39,315 nt of DNA from Gemmatimonadota bacterium (GCA_023249375.1 JAHFCT010000030.1:1-39315), one strand, 5' to 3'; positions 28,870-39,315 are shown, counted from the first letter of the stretch. Notes: a model not told the origin generated them from the sequence alone. Translations and numbers: made by a program.

Positions 28870-29010
28870 GGACAGGGATCACGGATCTCGATCTGTGAAC
28901 TCGATGGAGGATTGCGAATGCGATGAGGGGGTGCCGACTGCGGCACCCCCTCTCGCTATCGAAATCAAGAATCGAGATCCGTGATCGAAATCCGTGATCC
29001 CTGTCCTCAA
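28866..29010. repeat. Dispersed repeat, complete inverted copy (D)
   Basis: The left arm 28866-28886 (TTGAGGACAGGGATC, then ACGGAT) and right arm 28990-29010 are perfect reverse complements over 21 bp. A second inner pair, CGGATCTCGAT (28883-28893) and ATCGAGATCCG (28971-28981), is also perfect. A strong GC hairpin sits at the centre. It fills the whole gap between two convergent genes. Confidence 0.85.
28925..28952. terminator. Central hairpin, likely bidirectional terminator
   Basis: GAGGGGGTGCCG (28925-28936) pairs perfectly over 12 bp with CGGCACCCCCTC (28941-28952), with an ACTG loop. It lies between convergent genes. No T-run follows on either side, so termination is inferred from position. 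Confidence 0.6.
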
Positions 29011-29017
29011 TCCGCGG

Positions 29018-31095: not shown

Positions 31096-31104
31096 TCGTA
31101 CTCC

Positions 31105-31181
31105 TGCCACGTGCCACCTGCCACCTGCCACCTGCCACCTGCCACCTGCCACCTGCCACCTGCCACCTGCCACCTGCCGCA
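31105..31181. repeat. 7-bp tandem repeat (TGCCACC), about 11 copies
   Basis: Nine perfect TGCCACC units run from 31112 to 31174. One unit with a single change precedes them (TGCCACG, 31105) and one degenerate unit follows (TGCCGCA, 31175). It lies in the 5' leader or promoter side of tRNA-Lys. Such a tract is prone to copy-number change. Confidence 0.95.
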
Positions 31182-32771: not shown

Positions 32772-33284
32772 TCAGGTCGGTCTGAAACGCAGCTGCACCA
32801 CGTAGCGTCCCGGTGCGACTTTGGCTCCGGGGAGCAGCTTCCAAGCCTGCGGCGCCTTGTCCACCAGGCACGCGTTCACGGCTTTGCCCGCCTTCGATGA
32901 CCAGTCATCGGCGCCAACCCGTGCCGACCAAATCTTGCCGGCGTCGAACACCACAACGAGCGCCACAGCGCCGACCAGCTTCGGGTCGGACTTTTGCCCA
33001 AACTCCTGATAGCAGAAACGAGAGATGCCCTCCTCGCGCTGCACCGCGTCCATCAATGCCTCGGGCGCATCCGGAATCTTGTCGATGCGAAGGCGCGGCG
33101 CCTTGCTGGGGGCGACGAATGTGTCATTCACCGCCGGCGGTAAGCTCGTCTTGACGGCGCCGAGGTCGACTTTCTGCGTGTCGGCGGCGGGCCATGCGGC
33201 CGCGGACTGGCTGTGTTGCGGCTTGGGGTCGCCGGAGCACGCGAGAGTACAGAGCGTCAGCAGGATGGGTGCGAGCGGTCGCAT
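32772..33284 (-). CDS. Putative lipoprotein with AgmX/PglI-type C-terminal domain
   Basis: A 170-residue exported protein. The signal MRPLAPILLTLCTLAC fits a lipoprotein with Cys16. The C-terminal half (about 85-168) contains RFCYQEFG, DPKLVGAVALVVVFDAG, SARVGADDWS and a conserved Cys in AVNACL. It aligns by eye with the C-terminus of the larger TonB-like protein encoded at 33409: the same FCYQE, NP/DP-x-L-x-G, ARVG, W-S and A-C positions at the same spacing. So it is a stand-alone paralogue of that domain. It lies downstream in the same direction, separated by a repeat element. It probably acts in the same envelope complex. Confidence 0.65.
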   Translation of the reverse strand: MRPLAPILLTLCTLACSGDPKPQHSQSAAAWPAADTQKVDLGAVKTSLPPAVNDTFVAPSKAPRLRIDKIPDAPEALMDAVQREEGISRFCYQEFGQKSDPKLVGAVALVVVFDAGKIWSARVGADDWSSKAGKAVNACLVDKAPQAWKLLPGAKVAPGRYVVQLRFRPT

Positions 33285-33294
33285 GGGATTACCA

Positions 33295-33402
33295 GACAGG
33301 GATCACGGATTGCGATGAAGGATATCGATCGAGGATTCCGATCGCGATCGAATTCCGCAATCGGAATCCTGAATCGCAATCCGTGATCCCTGTCCTAAAT
33401 CC
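33295..33402. repeat. Dispersed repeat, complete inverted copy (E)
   Basis: The left arm 33295-33316 (GACAGGGATCACGGATTGCG then AT) and right arm 33373-33394 are perfect reverse complements over 22 bp. A second nested pair, AGGATTCCGAT (33332-33342) and ATCGGAATCCT (33360-33370), is also perfect. The unit ends CCTAAATCC like copy B. It fills the gap between two genes of the envelope cluster. Confidence 0.88.
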
Positions 33403-33408
33403 GGCTTC

Positions 33409-34275
33409 TCATTTGTTAAAAACAAATGAGAAGCCGTACGTCTCATTCCCCGCCGCAGCCGACGCCGGAAAGCTCCAGCCGCGGATGCGCTGCAGAATGC
33501 ACGCCTCCGCTTCAGGCACGCCCGCGCCCGACCACGTGCGGTCGCCCACGCGCGCCGCCGCCACGGCACCGCCCGGCGCGATCGTCACCTCGACGCTGAT
33601 CGAGCCGGCGAGTGCAGGGTTGATCAGCAGCCCCTGCTCCTGATAACAGAACTGAAGCTGTGCCTGTCGCGAACGCACAAACGTACCGAGCTGCGTCATG
33701 TCGCGGCTGGCGCGCTCACCGGGGCGCGCGACCACCTGCGGCGCCGCGACGCGGATGCTGGCACGAGACACGCCGCCGGTCGCGTTCACCTTGCCGATGC
33801 CCGACGCGGCCGCCGCGGCCGCCGCATCGAATCCCTTGCCCGGCGTTCGCGCGCCGACCCCGCCTTGCCCATAGCCGATGACGGCCTTTCGGCCGCCAGC
33901 GCCGCTTTTGTCACCCTTTGCCACCTCGACGCCACGCAGCGCATTCGTGACGTCGCCGACGAGTGCGTTGGTGTTGCCGCCTCCGAATGCGTCGCCGATG
34001 TCCTTCTCCTCCTTCGCCACCCGCTGCTTCTCCTTCTCCACGGGGGTTGGCGGCGGCTCCTTCGTATTCGGCGCGGACTCGGGTGGCGGTGCTTCCCGCT
34101 TCGGCGGCGGCGGATCGTCGAACTGCACGGAAATCGACGCCGCTTCTTCGGGGCGCAGCAGTGCGATGGTCGGCGGTGGGGCGGGCGTCAGATAGACGAG
34201 CGCCAGCCAGCTCGCACCCATCCCGACGGCCAGCGCGTGCGAGACCGTGAGCGCGCGCGTCTCGGACGCAATCAT
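33409..34275 (-). CDS. TonB-like periplasm-spanning protein, AgmX/PglI C-terminal domain
   Basis: A 288-residue protein of TonB-like design. A short cytoplasmic N-terminus leads to one membrane anchor (about 12-30, HALAVGMGASWLALVYL). A Pro/Glu/Lys-rich rod (33-92) and a Gly/Ala-rich flexible part follow. A globular C-terminal domain (about 192-288) has LQFCYQEQGLLINPALAGSI, EVTIAPGGAVAAARVG and WSFPAS. The C-terminus matches the AgmX/PglI domain of Myxococcus proteins rather than classic TonB. It should carry force from the ExbB/ExbD motor across the periplasm. The ATG overlaps the upstream exbD-like stop (ATGA). Confidence 0.8.
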   Translation of the reverse strand: MIASETRALTVSHALAVGMGASWLALVYLTPAPPPTIALLRPEEAASISVQFDDPPPPKREAPPPESAPNTKEPPPTPVEKEKQRVAKEEKDIGDAFGGGNTNALVGDVTNALRGVEVAKGDKSGAGGRKAVIGYGQGGVGARTPGKGFDAAAAAAASGIGKVNATGGVSRASIRVAAPQVVARPGERASRDMTQLGTFVRSRQAQLQFCYQEQGLLINPALAGSISVEVTIAPGGAVAAARVGDRTWSGAGVPEAEACILQRIRGWSFPASAAAGNETYGFSFVFNK

Positions 34276-34802
34276 GGCGCGCCTGCCACGCGCTGCACTT
34301 GCAGCGACAGATGCGTGAACCCCGCCAGACGTGCGGTGGCCATGAAGCGCGACAGCAGGTCGTAGCGCATCGTGCGGTCGCCCTGGATGGCGAGCGCCAC
34401 CTTGAGATCCCCATCTGGCGCCACGCCCTGCGCCTTGCGCAGCGAGTCGGCCAGCGATCGCATGGCGCGGTACAGCGTCGGAACCTTAAGCGGATGACGC
34501 GTATCGTTGCTCGGCTCGGCGGCCGCGTCCAACGTGTTCATCACGGGATGATTGGCCAGCGTCACCGTGGCGCCGATGCCAAGCGTGAGCTGCGACAGCG
34601 CGGGCGTGCCCACCGTTGCCTGCGGCAGCGTCACGCCGGGCACCACGGGTGCGAGTTCACCCACGGTGGTCGTCGTGAGCGTGAAGAACACAATCGACAC
34701 GAACGTATCGACGAGCGGCACCAGGTTGAGCTGCGTCACGCGGAACTTCCGGAACTGCTGGGCACGCCGCGCGGCGCGCAGATCGCGCGTGCGGTTCTTC
34801 AT
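34272..34802 (-). CDS. ExbD/TolR-family protein (second copy)
   Basis: A 176-residue biopolymer transport protein. A basic cytoplasmic N-terminus (KNRTRDLRAARRAQQFRKFR) leads to the single helix LNLVPLVDTFVSIVFFTL with the conserved membrane Asp32. A periplasmic domain follows, ending GDLKVALAIQGDRTMRYDLL and LQVQRV. The extra stretch after the helix (residues 48-115) is longer than in usual ExbD. It forms the stator/rotor with ExbB and uses the proton gradient. The ATG overlaps the first exbD-like gene (ATGA). Confidence 0.87.
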   Translation of the reverse strand: MKNRTRDLRAARRAQQFRKFRVTQLNLVPLVDTFVSIVFFTLTTTTVGELAPVVPGVTLPQATVGTPALSQLTLGIGATVTLANHPVMNTLDAAAEPSNDTRHPLKVPTLYRAMRSLADSLRKAQGVAPDGDLKVALAIQGDRTMRYDLLSRFMATARLAGFTHLSLQVQRVAGAP

Positions 34803-35344
34803 GGCGGCGTCACCGGCGTCGCGCGCGCCTTGGTCCCGAGTGAGATGCCGCTGAACCGTGACTTCTTGAGCCGCTCAAGCACGCGGACGATATCATCGTA
34901 CGACACTTCGTCGGCGGGAATCACCACCACGTCGCGGTTCTGCGGATAGCGCGCGCGGATCTCCGTCATCAGCGCCTGCAGTGAATCGAGCGAGGTGGCG
35001 CTCAGGCTGTCGATGCGCGTGTGAAAGCCGCCCTCTGCCGAATGCTCGATTTCGAGGTGGTCGTTGGTGACGCGCACCGCGAGCAGCAGGTTCAGCACGT
35101 CGTCTTCCTTCTTGAGCTGCTTCACTTCGTCGGGGCTCGTCACTACCACCGGCGGCAGCACGAGGTCGAAGCTCGTGAGCGCGGCGAGCGCCGTCCCGGT
35201 GTACGTCAGCAGCGAGAAGAAGACGATGGACGTGAGAATGTCGACGAGCGGCACCAGGTTGAGGTGCCCGCCCTCGTGCCCGCCCATCCCCGTGCCGCGT
35301 TCGGAGCGGCGAAGACGGGTGCGGTGGAGATAGCTCGACGCCAC
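34799..35344 (-). CDS. ExbD/TolR-family protein (first copy)
   Basis: A 181-residue protein. A basic N-terminus leads to the helix LNLVPLVDILTSIVFFSLL with membrane Asp35. A periplasmic ExbD domain follows, with LAVRVTNDHLEIEH, ARYPQNRDVVVIPADEVSY and DDIVRVLERLKKSRFSGISL. It shares the LNLVPLVD core with the next gene but differs elsewhere, so the two are old paralogues with distinct jobs. The start is GTG at 35344; ATG 35287 would remove the basic part and is less likely. It lies 21 nt after the exbB-like gene. Confidence 0.88.
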   Translation of the reverse strand: MASSYLHRTRLRRSERGTGMGGHEGGHLNLVPLVDILTSIVFFSLLTYTGTALAALTSFDLVLPPVVVTSPDEVKQLKKEDDVLNLLLAVRVTNDHLEIEHSAEGGFHTRIDSLSATSLDSLQALMTEIRARYPQNRDVVVIPADEVSYDDIVRVLERLKKSRFSGISLGTKARATPVTPP

Positions 35345-35365
35345 GCGCGGTCCGTCCGCTCGCGC

Positions 35366-35992
35366 CTACTCGGCGCGCCGTGCGGTGAGCGCGTTGATCA
35401 AGCGCACCGAGAACTCATCGACGCGTTCAATCATGCCCTCCGCCTGGCTCGAGAGCCACGCGTGCGCCACCGACAGCGGCACCGCGGTGAGCAGGCCGAA
35501 GCCCGTCGCGTTCAGCGCAATGGCGATGCCCGCCGCCAGCTTGCCGGAGCGCTCGGCGGCCGACACCATCGCGACGGACGAGAACGCTTCGCGCAGGCCG
35601 AAGATGGTGCCGAGCAAGCCGAGCAGCGTGGCCACGTTGGCGAGCATCGGGAGATAGTGCAGGCGGCGCGTCAGCCCGGGAATGACCGCGAGTCCTGCCG
35701 CGTCGGCGACGTTTTGCAGATCGGACTCGGTGCGGCTCTGCGACTTGAGCACGTAGTCGCCGATGTGCGGAATGGCGCCGGTGGTGCCGCCGCAGATCTT
35801 GGCAGCCTCCGCGTCCTTGCCGCTCTCCACCAGCTTGAGCACGCGTTCAACGAACTCGCGCGAGTTCCCCTTGGACCGCAGCACCAGCACATAGACGCGC
35901 TCGAAGAAGACAGCGAGCCCGAGCACCGCCACCGCGAGGATGGCGTGCATGATGGGTCCACCGCTGCGGTAATACTCGAGCAAGGTGCTCAT
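35366..35992 (-). CDS. ExbB/TolQ/MotA-family proton channel protein
   Basis: A 208-residue protein with the three-helix TolQ layout. TM1 is about 13-34 (IMHAILAVAVLGLAVFFERV). A large cytoplasmic loop is rich in Lys/Glu. TM2 is about 113-132 (LPMLANVATLLGLLGTIFGL), with the family LLGLLGTV-like motif. TM3 is about 148-172 (GIAIALNATGFGLLTAVPLS), with the conserved Thr/Pro. With the two ExbD-type proteins it should form a proton-driven motor in the inner membrane. The ATG lies in the stop of the preceding small gene (ATGA). Confidence 0.93.
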   Translation of the reverse strand: MSTLLEYYRSGGPIMHAILAVAVLGLAVFFERVYVLVLRSKGNSREFVERVLKLVESGKDAEAAKICGGTTGAIPHIGDYVLKSQSRTESDLQNVADAAGLAVIPGLTRRLHYLPMLANVATLLGLLGTIFGLREAFSSVAMVSAAERSGKLAAGIAIALNATGFGLLTAVPLSVAHAWLSSQAEGMIERVDEFSVRLINALTARRAE

Positions 35993-36411
35993 GGCGTGCG
36001 TGTCCTCCGGTCGGAAGCCGCGGCAGCCCGCACTTCGGCGCTGGCCGGAGCGGGCACCACCACGCCGGCGCGCGCGGCGCCGGCGGAATCGGCAAAGGTG
36101 AGCAGCGATGGCGCGAGCAGGCGACGCGTGTACTGCGGCACCTCACGCGGACGCACGGTGATGACTTCTGGAGCCGGGGCTTGCGCGCGAATCTCAACGG
36201 TGCGGCGCGACTTTGGATCGATCGGTGCGCCCGGCACTGGCGCCGTCGCGGCGGAAGCACTGGCGGGAGCAGCGGCGGGTGTCGACGCGGGCACCGCCGC
36301 GGGCGGCGCTGCTGGCGACGCGGTTGGCTGCTGCGCGCGCGCCACGGCCGGCGCCACCACCGCAATGGCGAGCGCCGCGAGCAGTCGCGGGGGCTGAGTG
36401 AAGAGACTCAT
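35989..36411 (-). CDS. Small Ala/Pro-rich exported protein
   Basis: A 140-residue protein with a Sec signal (MSLFTQPPRLLAALAIAVVA to VARAQQ). A low-complexity Ala/Pro stretch (25-65) is followed by a more ordinary region, with RRTVEIRAQAPAPEVITVRP and REVPQYTRRLLAPSLLTF. I recognise no family. It ends in the exbB-like start codon (ATGA) and follows the TPR gene by 19 nt, so it belongs to the motor operon. The VITVRPREVPQY part could be an interaction peptide. The start is ATG 36411; an in-frame TTG two codons upstream is unlikely. Confidence 0.65.
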   Translation of the reverse strand: MSLFTQPPRLLAALAIAVVAPAVARAQQPTASPAAPPAAVPASTPAAAPASASAATAPVPGAPIDPKSRRTVEIRAQAPAPEVITVRPREVPQYTRRLLAPSLLTFADSAGAARAGVVVPAPASAEVRAAAASDRRTRTP

Positions 36412-36430
36412 GGGCAATCGTGAAATGTAG

Positions 36431-39315
36431 TCACCTCGACACTCCGTAGCCGGACTTGGGCAGGTTCGCCGCGGGCGGTTTCGTCGAGTCCGGCGGCGGT
36501 TTCACGGCGGGCGCCAGCGGTGGCTTCGTCGAGTCCGTGGGTACCTTCGATGAATCCGGCGGAGTAGCGAGTTCACGCGGCGGCACACCCTTTCCCTCGA
36601 GGGCATCCTTGGCACGCGTCACCCACGCATTCTCAAATCCGCCCTTCGTGGCCTTTTCTGCGAGCGCTTGCCACGTCGTGCGCGCCGCATCGAAGTACTG
36701 CTGCGCTTGCTGCGCCGATCCGCGCTGTGCCGCGGTTCGTTGGCCTTCGGTGAGCTCGGCCGGGAGCTGCACGTCGCGCAGGAACAGGCCGTAGTGCCAC
36801 TGCGCGAGTCCTGTCTGGAATGACGAGGCCGACAGCCACTCGGGGGCGCCGGCCGCGATTGCCCGGCCGAACGTCTGGCCGAGCTGACGCAGCAACTGCA
36901 ACTTGGCCGCCGACGCCTTGTCCACGCCGGCGCGCGTCAGGTCGGCGCGGGTCGCGATCACCAGCTTCATCCCCTCGTAGCGCGGCCACAGCGCCATGCC
37001 TTCGCGGTACGCACTCTCGGCGGTGCGCGCGGCACAGCGGTCGGTGAGCACGGCGGACGGACGCACGCAGAGCTTGGTCAGCTCGGCGGCGGCGGTTGCC
37101 GAATCGCCAGCGAGCGCCAGTTGATCGAGGCGCAGGCGCTGCGCGTCGGGCACGCGCGGATCGCGCGGGAATCGCTGGACGAACGTCGCCAGCGTCCGCG
37201 CCGCATTCGGCGCGTCCTTGGCGTCGCCGTACGTCACGGCCGCGTTGTATGCCGCATCGGCCGCGCGCTTGTCCTGTGGATACGCCAGGCTCACTTGCTC
37301 GTACGCCGCGGCTGCTTCGGCGCGACGGCCAAGTGAATCGAGCAGCACCGCCGTGCGCACCATCGCATCGGCGCGCCCCGGCCACGTCGGGTTGGAAGTC
37401 GTCAGCTCGCGCAACGCGACCACGGCGCCCGGTGCATCGCCGATGTCGGACAACAGTCGGGCGCGCACTGTGCGATACGTGAACGTGTGCTGGTACGCCG
37501 GGAAGTCCTGCGCCAACACGGCGATGATGTCCACCGCGCGCCGGCGCGCGGCGAGCGAGCCCGCGGTGTCGCTCTTCAGCCGCAGCGAGCTGTCGGCGGC
37601 AAGCTGCACTTCGATCGCGTTGCGAAGGGCGTCGCCAGCTCGCGTCGGATCGCCGATATCCTTGGCCAGCGGCAGATACACCTCGTTCGCCGCGCGCGCG
37701 TACTCGCCTGCCTTCACCAGCGAATCGGCGACGCGCGCCGCCGCGCCAATCCGCGCGCCCGCAATCGAATCCACCAGCGGCTTGCGTCCCGACGCAACGG
37801 CCGCGCGCTGCGCCGTCCCCCACTCCTGCTGCGCCTGCGCATACTGACCGAGCTTGAAGCGCGCGTCGCCCACCAGCTTGCGCGCATCGGTCGCGAACGG
37901 ATCGCCTGGCCACCGCACCGCAAATTCGTCGAAGGCCTGTGCCACGACTTCCCATCGACCCGCTTCGGACGCGCGCCGCCCCTTGGCGATCATCACCTGC
38001 CGCGCATCGGCCTCTGATGCCTGTGCCACGAAGCGGTCCGCTGCCGCGAAGAGCGAATCCTGTACCGCACGATCGGCCGGTGCGCGCACAAACGCCGAGT
38101 CGAGCGCCACGATCGCGTTGCGCCGCGCGGCCGCGGCCATCGTCGTATCGCCCCGCTGCGCGGCGCGCGAGTACTCGACCCCCGCCTGCGCAAACTCGCC
38201 CGCGCCAAACAGCGCCTCCGCGTACAGCACGTTCATGCGAGGCGCGCTGTCCGCCTTCGCAAACTCGCGCTGATACCGCGCCAGGAGATCCGCGGCGCTC
38301 GTGAAGACCGGCTTCCCGCCCTTGGCCGCGCGCGCCAGCTCAAACTGCGCCGCATCGCGGAGCATCTGCTCGCGCACCACCGCGGTCATCGCGGCGCGCG
38401 CCGCATTGGCGCGTCCCCACGGCGTTTCCGGTCCGTACGTCTCGACCAGCGTCAGGCGCGCCTGCTGCGCGCGTTCCTGCTCAAGCATCCGGTTCTGGTA
38501 CAGGTCAACCAGTTCCACCTGTGCATTTAGCGCGAGCGTGTCGAGTGGCGCCTGCTCCGCCACCGCGCGGAACGCCAGTGCCGCACTCGAGAACTCGCCC
38601 TGCTCGCGCAGCGCGCGCGCCGTGCGGCGCAACACGAGCATGCGCGTCTGCAGGTCGGGAAGCGTCGCCAGATACTGAATGGCGTCGTTCGGGCCGCCAA
38701 TCTGCGTCAGCGCGATCGCCATGTAGTCGATCGCCTCCTTTCGCAGCGCGAGGCGCGCCTGGCGGTCGGCCGTCAGCCGGTCGTACTCCACCACGAGCCG
38801 CGCAAACACCTCGACCGCGCGACGGTACTCGTCCGACGCCTGCCGCTCCGCCTGCACGTAGCTCGACCAACCCAGCTTGTACATCGCGAGGTAGTAGATG
38901 TCGCCGTCACGCGGGGAGAGCTCAATCGCCCTGCCGTACGCCGTGGAAGCCGTCGCCAGCAGCGCCCGACGCGCATCGCCCGCCTGACGGATGGCCATCT
39001 CAAACCGCGTCTCGCCCAAGCGGTAAAAGGCTTCCGAGCGGTAGTGCGAGCGTTCGTCGGCAATCACCCACTCCCACGCGCGCGACGACTCGTCCCAGCG
39101 TTGCGCCGTGAAATTGAGCGACCCCAATGTGTACGCCGCCGCGTCTGCTTCCACGTCGCCGGGATACATCGTGAGGAAGTCATCCAGTCGCGCGATCGCT
39201 TTCGAGTAGTCCGGGCGGTCGAGCGCCGTCCCGCCGGCGCGCTGCGACGCCGCATATTCGGCATCCGCCGCCCGCGCCAAGAGCTCGGCCAGATGCAGCA
39301 CGGTGCGCGGACGCA
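36431..39315 (-). CDS. Large TPR-repeat protein, 5' partial
   Basis: At least 960 residues, open at the window edge, so the N-terminus and any signal peptide are missing. It is built from many tetratricopeptide-like helical repeats, for example YSKAIARLDDFLTMYPGDVE, RWDESSRAWEWVI, DEYRRAVEVFARLVVEYDRL and AAYEQVSLAYPQDKRAADAA. The repeat style (tryptophan-poor, YPxD/FPxD turns) is that of BamD/YbgF/CpoB-like periplasmic TPRs. The C-terminus is a Pro/Ser/Thr/Lys tail with DSTKPP repeats, ending GYGVSR. TPR proteins are scaffolds. As the first visible gene of the motor operon it probably organises the periplasmic or outer-membrane side. No enzyme motif is visible. Confidence 0.85.
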   Translation of the reverse strand, partial: RPRTVLHLAELLARAADAEYAASQRAGGTALDRPDYSKAIARLDDFLTMYPGDVEADAAAYTLGSLNFTAQRWDESSRAWEWVIADERSHYRSEAFYRLGETRFEMAIRQAGDARRALLATASTAYGRAIELSPRDGDIYYLAMYKLGWSSYVQAERQASDEYRRAVEVFARLVVEYDRLTADRQARLALRKEAIDYMAIALTQIGGPNDAIQYLATLPDLQTRMLVLRRTARALREQGEFSSAALAFRAVAEQAPLDTLALNAQVELVDLYQNRMLEQERAQQARLTLVETYGPETPWGRANAARAAMTAVVREQMLRDAAQFELARAAKGGKPVFTSAADLLARYQREFAKADSAPRMNVLYAEALFGAGEFAQAGVEYSRAAQRGDTTMAAAARRNAIVALDSAFVRAPADRAVQDSLFAAADRFVAQASEADARQVMIAKGRRASEAGRWEVVAQAFDEFAVRWPGDPFATDARKLVGDARFKLGQYAQAQQEWGTAQRAAVASGRKPLVDSIAGARIGAAARVADSLVKAGEYARAANEVYLPLAKDIGDPTRAGDALRNAIEVQLAADSSLRLKSDTAGSLAARRRAVDIIAVLAQDFPAYQHTFTYRTVRARLLSDIGDAPGAVVALRELTTSNPTWPGRADAMVRTAVLLDSLGRRAEAAAAYEQVSLAYPQDKRAADAAYNAAVTYGDAKDAPNAARTLATFVQRFPRDPRVPDAQRLRLDQLALAGDSATAAAELTKLCVRPSAVLTDRCAARTAESAYREGMALWPRYEGMKLVIATRADLTRAGVDKASAAKLQLLRQLGQTFGRAIAAGAPEWLSASSFQTGLAQWHYGLFLRDVQLPAELTEGQRTAAQRGSAQQAQQYFDAARTTWQALAEKATKGGFENAWVTRAKDALEGKGVPPRELATPPDSSKVPTDSTKPPLAPAVKPPPDSTKPPAANLPKSGYGVSR

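Follow-up and report, generated by a model that had tools for sequence, protein, structure and literature searches.

The closest described counterparts of the system considered here are the gliding (Agl-Glt) and spore-coat (Nfs) motors of Myxococcus. A contact between AglR and GltG has been published for Agl-Glt, together with a model in which TonBC/TonB-box contacts are made cyclically (PMC3169522, PMC5349195), and Luciano et al. proposed that an inventory of AglRQS plus GltA, B, C, D, E, F and G marks a potential glider; the role of the Agl/Glt 'core complex' in non-gliding bacteria is an unanswered question (PMC3169522). Here we describe a cassette of comparable layout in a Gemmatimonadota bacterium (GCA_023249375.1). 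Seven of its genes lie at one end of JAHFCT010000030.1, a stretch of 39,315 nt (the window) that is the whole of contig C79 in a genome of 3.81 Mb and 120 contigs. On balance we believe that the cassette encodes a dedicated trans-envelope transducer, driven by the proton-motive force and working like the Agl-Glt/Nfs class. Likeness to the Myxococcus systems was judged from published descriptions and family models, and although the layout resembles the gliding and spore-coat motors, nothing shows a role in gliding.

All seven open reading frames (ORFs) listed in an earlier, sequence-only reading of the window are present on the minus strand and in the order it gave. They encode the C-terminal 960 amino acids (aa) of a giant exported protein with tetratricopeptide repeats (TPR) of the TPR/YbgF type (36431..39313), its ORF open at the contig end; a small exported protein with a TTG start (35989..36417), low in complexity except for a conserved island, VEIRAQAPAPEVITVRPREVPQY; an ExbB/TolQ-type channel subunit of 208 aa (35366..35992); two ExbD proteins of 181 aa (34799..35344) and 176 aa (34272..34802); a GltG/TonB-like transducer of 288 aa (33409..34275); and a lipoprotein of 170 aa with a LACS lipobox (32772..33284). 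Four ATGA overlaps of 4 nt had been counted between these genes; there are three, at the small protein/ExbB, ExbD1/ExbD2 and ExbD2/transducer junctions, and the other junctions are gaps of +13, +21 and +124 nt. The TPR gene had also been taken as the first of the set, but it is the fourth. When reverse-complemented, the window's right end shares 121 identical bases with one end of contig C20, as though the assembly graph had been cut there. Read towards the window, C20 encodes a paralogous pair of outer-membrane proteins (about C20:86850-88004 and C20:88004-89173), a coiled-coil exported protein (about C20:89270-89941) and the N-terminal section of the TPR protein. The latter, split over the two contigs, is about 1,540 aa at full length and has the same size in sister genomes. 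Directly upstream of 39315, a place where tolB, pal or a TonB-receptor gene would have spoken for an ordinary system, we find instead the coiled-coil protein and the two barrels. The full cassette is thus ten genes, in the order barrel, barrel, coiled-coil protein, TPR scaffold, small protein, ExbB, ExbD, ExbD, GltG-like transducer and lipoprotein.

In profile searches the motor subunits, the AgmX-type domain and the TPR/YbgF-type repeats gave matches, and the earlier naming of one ExbB, two ExbDs, an AgmX-type protein and a TPR protein was borne out. ExbB matches PF01618 at 1.6e-19 and the two ExbDs match PF02472 at 1.9e-11 and 3.7e-11. The residues of the proton path are conserved: T129 and T163 of ExbB align with the threonines of TolQ 'GLFGTVWG' and 'ALIATAIGL', and the transmembrane motifs of the ExbDs, LNLVPLVDILTSIVFF in the first and LNLVPLVDTFVSIVFF in the second, include the proton-binding Asp, which stands in a PLVD motif in 17 of the 18 ExbDs checked (the remaining one fell outside the search pattern). 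Family profiles and proton-path residues, namely the transmembrane Asp of ExbD and two Thr of ExbB, are those of a MotA/TolQ/ExbB-ExbD/TolR motor, and a sequence search of the PDB with the channel subunit returned TolQ/ExbB matches only. In a tree rooted by midpoint only, the ExbBs of the cluster make up one side of a branch (support 100/99), with the other ExbB/TolQ proteins included on the far side.

The genome holds two further motors, a complete Tol-Pal operon on C104 (TolQ-TolR-TolA-TolB-Pal-YbgF) and a second ExbB-ExbD-ExbD set on C120; the cassette is a third, separate from both. Since the C120 set also pairs a single ExbB with two ExbDs, this combination does not by itself mark an Agl-type motor, and the earlier argument from that combination to Agl is unsupported. 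The broader claim to which it belonged, that this is a force-generating machine, holds up in other respects: the cassette is dedicated, distinct from the Tol-Pal and C120 sets, equipped with a GltG/AgmX-like transducer and nearly colinear with Agl/Glt/Nfs. Nothing came up in scans with PADLOC and PHROGs, so an anti-phage motor of the Zorya kind is not indicated.

The transducer passes the AgmX/PglI domain model NF033768 (3.6e-17, 62.2 bits, curated cut-off 40). Its predicted structure has the parts of a TonB/TolA-type protein: a single transmembrane helix (residues 3-29), a long, low-confidence linker rich in Pro and Gly, and a folded C-terminal domain at about 186-288, where the predicted local distance difference test score (pLDDT) is mostly above 90. 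In structure comparison (VIA list), C-terminal domains of TonB and TolA took ranks 1-13 for this domain, with Z of 6.4-7.5, above the unrelated rows, so that the model points to a TonB-like fold; Foldseek E-values were only about 0.01. Cys 210 and Cys 259 are conserved in the transducer, and the same Cys pair occurs in the lipoprotein, whose C-terminal domain is a second, AgmX-like one, tied to that family through its alignment with the transducer only. A PDB search by sequence gave nothing convincing for the transducer, the barrels or the coiled-coil protein, and tblastn of the transducer against plasmids gave no match.

Of the two paralogous barrels, the second was modelled, from a sister genome; it is predicted to have 12 strands followed by a C-terminal helical pair (mean pLDDT 73.7), and the solved folds closest to the model are KdgM (Z 16.5, root-mean-square deviation 2.0, 159 residues aligned) and FapF (Z 16.3). 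The TPR part is often divided between two genes (about 750 and 1,010 aa) in other genera. In the small protein, the island IEIRGQVPTPQVVTVRPRxxPxY, of about 20 residues, is present in 27/27 sequences examined, the rest being barely alignable, and the motif pattern does not occur elsewhere in the loci scanned. TonB-box contacts have been proposed in Agl-Glt (PMC5349195, PMC9389320), and on this parallel we take the island as a candidate docking peptide for the transducer domain; the motif does not match the TonB-box consensus.

Conservation was followed in 27 related loci from named genomes. The complete order from the first barrel through the coiled-coil protein, TPR scaffold, small protein, ExbB and the ExbDs to the GltG-like transducer is found in 15 of them, and contig ends truncate most of the other 12; the small protein of L125 scores under the threshold, yet its motif is present. 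With the exception of a solitary-ExbB type (L080, L127), no related locus of sufficient length has the core genes in another order, an agreement far greater than chance would give. Of 395 genomes sampled from the phylum, 26 carry an ExbB of the clade, all in one family, the Gemmatimonadaceae, where the cassette is carried by a minority and is missing in close relatives. The closest relatives come from records labelled Gemmatimonadetes, Gemmatimonas sp. and Gemmatimonadaceae metagenome-assembled genomes. A contig scan with the ExbB alignment found only Gemmatimonadota; its peptide patterns are lineage-specific and hence silent on other phyla.

G004 and G010 belong to the same genus as the window's genome, and in them the genes that flank the cassette, for a PMT-type glycosyltransferase and a Big_2 lipoprotein, are separated by 265 and 333 bp containing none of its genes. 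Such an empty site with joined flanks, found twice within one genus, is the reason for concluding that everything from the first barrel gene through the AgmX-type lipoprotein gene comes and goes together. The Big_2 lipoprotein, of 1,074 aa with Ig-like repeats, is encoded directly upstream of the first barrel gene (on C20, L130:3416-6640); we considered it and the glycosyltransferase as members of the cassette and rejected both, as they are still neighbours where the cluster is missing. The solitary ExbBs form an observation of their own. Four of the 26 genomes belong to genus g14, and the one inspected (G023) has the ExbB without ExbDs. There (L080:11418-12074), as in L127, a clade ExbB without ExbD or transducer stands beside genes for a TPM-domain protein, a nucleotidyltransferase and LemA, three genes that lie inside the cluster in other genera and not in the window's genus. 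A remnant or a re-used channel is possible.

How might such a machine work? The scheme we propose rests on the established behaviour of ExbBD and TolQR motors and on the published Agl-Glt model, and from these we infer the contacts between the parts, the direction in which force acts, the cargo and any movement. A pentamer of ExbB with a dimer of ExbD, possibly one of each kind, would let protons through, and their flow would drive the transducer with its single transmembrane helix, whose flexible linker would allow the TonB-like C-terminal domain to cross the peptidoglycan. That domain would then engage an outer-membrane and periplasmic module: the pair of putative 12-stranded barrels and their helical hairpins, the coiled-coil protein, the giant TPR scaffold and the conserved island of the small protein. 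The lipoprotein, probably sited at the outer membrane, would offer the same type of domain again. The pull could move or gate the barrel complex, most likely in the handling of a surface polymer or adhesin and not in iron uptake or envelope maintenance. More speculatively, and we regard this as unlikely, the cassette may be a surface-transport or gliding engine in Gemmatimonadota that has recruited two 12-stranded barrels of its own along with a docking-peptide protein, and in which a TonB-like arm delivers proton-derived force to the mobile barrel pair; within the Agl/Glt class it would then be a branch by itself, lying outside Proteobacteria, Myxococcota, Bdellovibrionota and Fibrobacterota.

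Several observations weigh against our main reading, a trans-envelope transducer that works like Agl-Glt/Nfs. The whole transducer model has a mean pLDDT of 66.9, and Z values of 6.4-7.5 are middling. The transmembrane His through which TonB and TolA bind their motors is not conserved; the residue after an invariant Ser12 is His in this genus and Trp elsewhere. Finally, in several genera a gene for a TonB-dependent receptor lies on the same strand about 0.2-1.1 kb past the last cluster gene. No tolA, tolB or pal was found in the operon across the window, C20 and the related loci, and the earlier statement that TolB, Pal and a TonB receptor are all lacking is right for the locus of this genome; it does not extend, for the receptor, to those other genera.

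The neighbouring receptors give substance to the alternative we take most seriously, which we nonetheless consider unlikely: that the cassette is a dedicated Ton-like system energising the transport of a poly- or oligosaccharide across the outer membrane, by way of a SusC-type receptor or of the barrels themselves. The predicted TonB-like fold of the transducer domain would suit such a system, as would the resemblance of the modelled barrel to the oligosaccharide porins KdgM and NanC and the amyloid exporter FapF, and a counterpart in Fibrobacter has been read as a TonB system for the import of cellodextrin (PMC6851124). SusC-type receptors are found beyond the LemA end of the cluster at L112:16571-19576 and in L111, L107, L114, L118, L122, L126 and L079. 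However, none is present at the locus in the window's genus or in the same-type loci L101, L102, L104, L108 and L125, and those that are present do not make up one orthologous group but separate groups with a mutual identity of only about 25-30%. Ordinary Ton systems, moreover, come without a conserved giant TPR scaffold and two paralogous barrels, and this genome already holds another ExbB-ExbD-ExbD set.

That the cassette is a gliding motor orthologous to Agl-Glt seems improbable to us. It is nearly colinear with the glider inventory of Luciano et al. (PMC3169522), and the transducer matches the GltG equivalog model NF033760 at 9.8e-17; the score of that match, though, is 60.7 bits against a cut-off of 650, and the profile search found no FHA domain in the protein. 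Among the matches listed in 12 genomes, the GltE model NF033758 had none inside the cluster and hit only unrelated TPR proteins. GltC is a periplasmic TPR protein beside the barrels, whereas the coiled-coil protein in that position had no TPR match in the profile search. GltA and GltB are described as OmpA-like proteins of 256-275 aa; of the two paralogous proteins in their position, the one modelled is predicted to be a 12-stranded barrel with a helical hairpin, a comparison made by description. A full-text literature search combining Gemmatimonadota with gliding motility returned 17 papers, of which none, to judge by title, concerns gliding in the phylum, and a 2026 review of gliding does not mention Gemmatimonadota. 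Homologues of MglA, the Myxococcus polarity GTPase, are present, and we rejected MglA as a gliding marker because it occurs irrespective of the cluster: it was found in 8/8 Gemmatimonadaceae tested, with or without the cassette. Two close homologues are at G000:C116:1632-2108 (~74% identity) and G000:C61:4275-4859 (~58%). Seven of the eight genomes have two copies, the second often on a contig with large TPR genes.

A Tol-Pal-type role in envelope maintenance, to which the matches of the channel and the TPR protein to TolQ/TolR/YbgF models might point, is very improbable, as the genome has a complete Tol-Pal operon elsewhere, the cluster contains no TolB or Pal, and its absence from most relatives means that it is dispensable.

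Elsewhere in the window, a dispersed intergenic repeat is present at 28871-29014 and 33295-33403 in copies ~80% identical, the second lying between the transducer and lipoprotein genes, and the 7-mer CCTGCCA stands in 11 tandem copies at 31103-31178, also intergenic.

Presence and absence of the cassette between sister species make its function testable by a comparison of isolates or by a single deletion, and the small protein offers a specific contact to test, a 20-residue motif kept while the rest of the protein varies. Among known systems, Tol-Pal and ExbBD-TonB share with the cassette the type of channel and the TonB/TolA-type fold predicted for the C-terminal domain; the cassette differs in having no TolB, Pal or obligatory receptor and in its extra barrels, TPR scaffold and coiled-coil protein. 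The core complexes of Gammaproteobacteria and Geobacter bring together aglRQS and gltC, D, E and G in one region, in hosts mostly not known as gliders, but lack gltA and gltB (PMC3169522), while the unit described here includes two barrels. In Fibrobacter succinogenes the genes FSU_2396-2403, which to judge from locus order are probably what Luciano et al. described as the 'core complex' of Fibrobacter, run OmpA-TPR (84 kDa)-TPR (147 kDa)-x-ExbB (23 kDa)-ExbD-ExbD-TonB, with broadly similar sizes (PMC6851124, PMC4619616). By description, an OmpA-family protein precedes the TPR genes there, where the cassette has the coiled-coil protein and the barrels. The Fibrobacter set, the most instructive of the described parallels, is raised on cellulose, and its OmpA and a TPR protein were found in an outer-membrane-vesicle complex with cellulases (PMC6851124, PMC4619616), which suggests a part in handling surface polymers or adhesins no less than in movement. 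With Agl-Glt and Nfs the cassette has in common one TolQ-type and two TolR-type proteins, a TonB-like transducer with a single transmembrane helix, two paralogous outer-membrane proteins (putative barrels here), exported TPR proteins and a small exported protein (PMC3169522, PMC3858216, PMC4488436). Its transducer is less than half as long as GltG, and it has an additional AgmX-type lipoprotein. Because the GltE model fails, the FHA domain is absent, TPR matches are missing from the third protein and the modelled barrel, 12-stranded with C-terminal helices, looks different by description, we liken the cassette to Agl-Glt/Nfs in the way it probably works and stop short of placing it in that class. 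Nfs keeps genes A-H in one region and its motor genes elsewhere, whereas here the motor genes lie inside the operon: the cassette is a compact, single-operon version in which motor, transducer, scaffold and outer-membrane part stand together.

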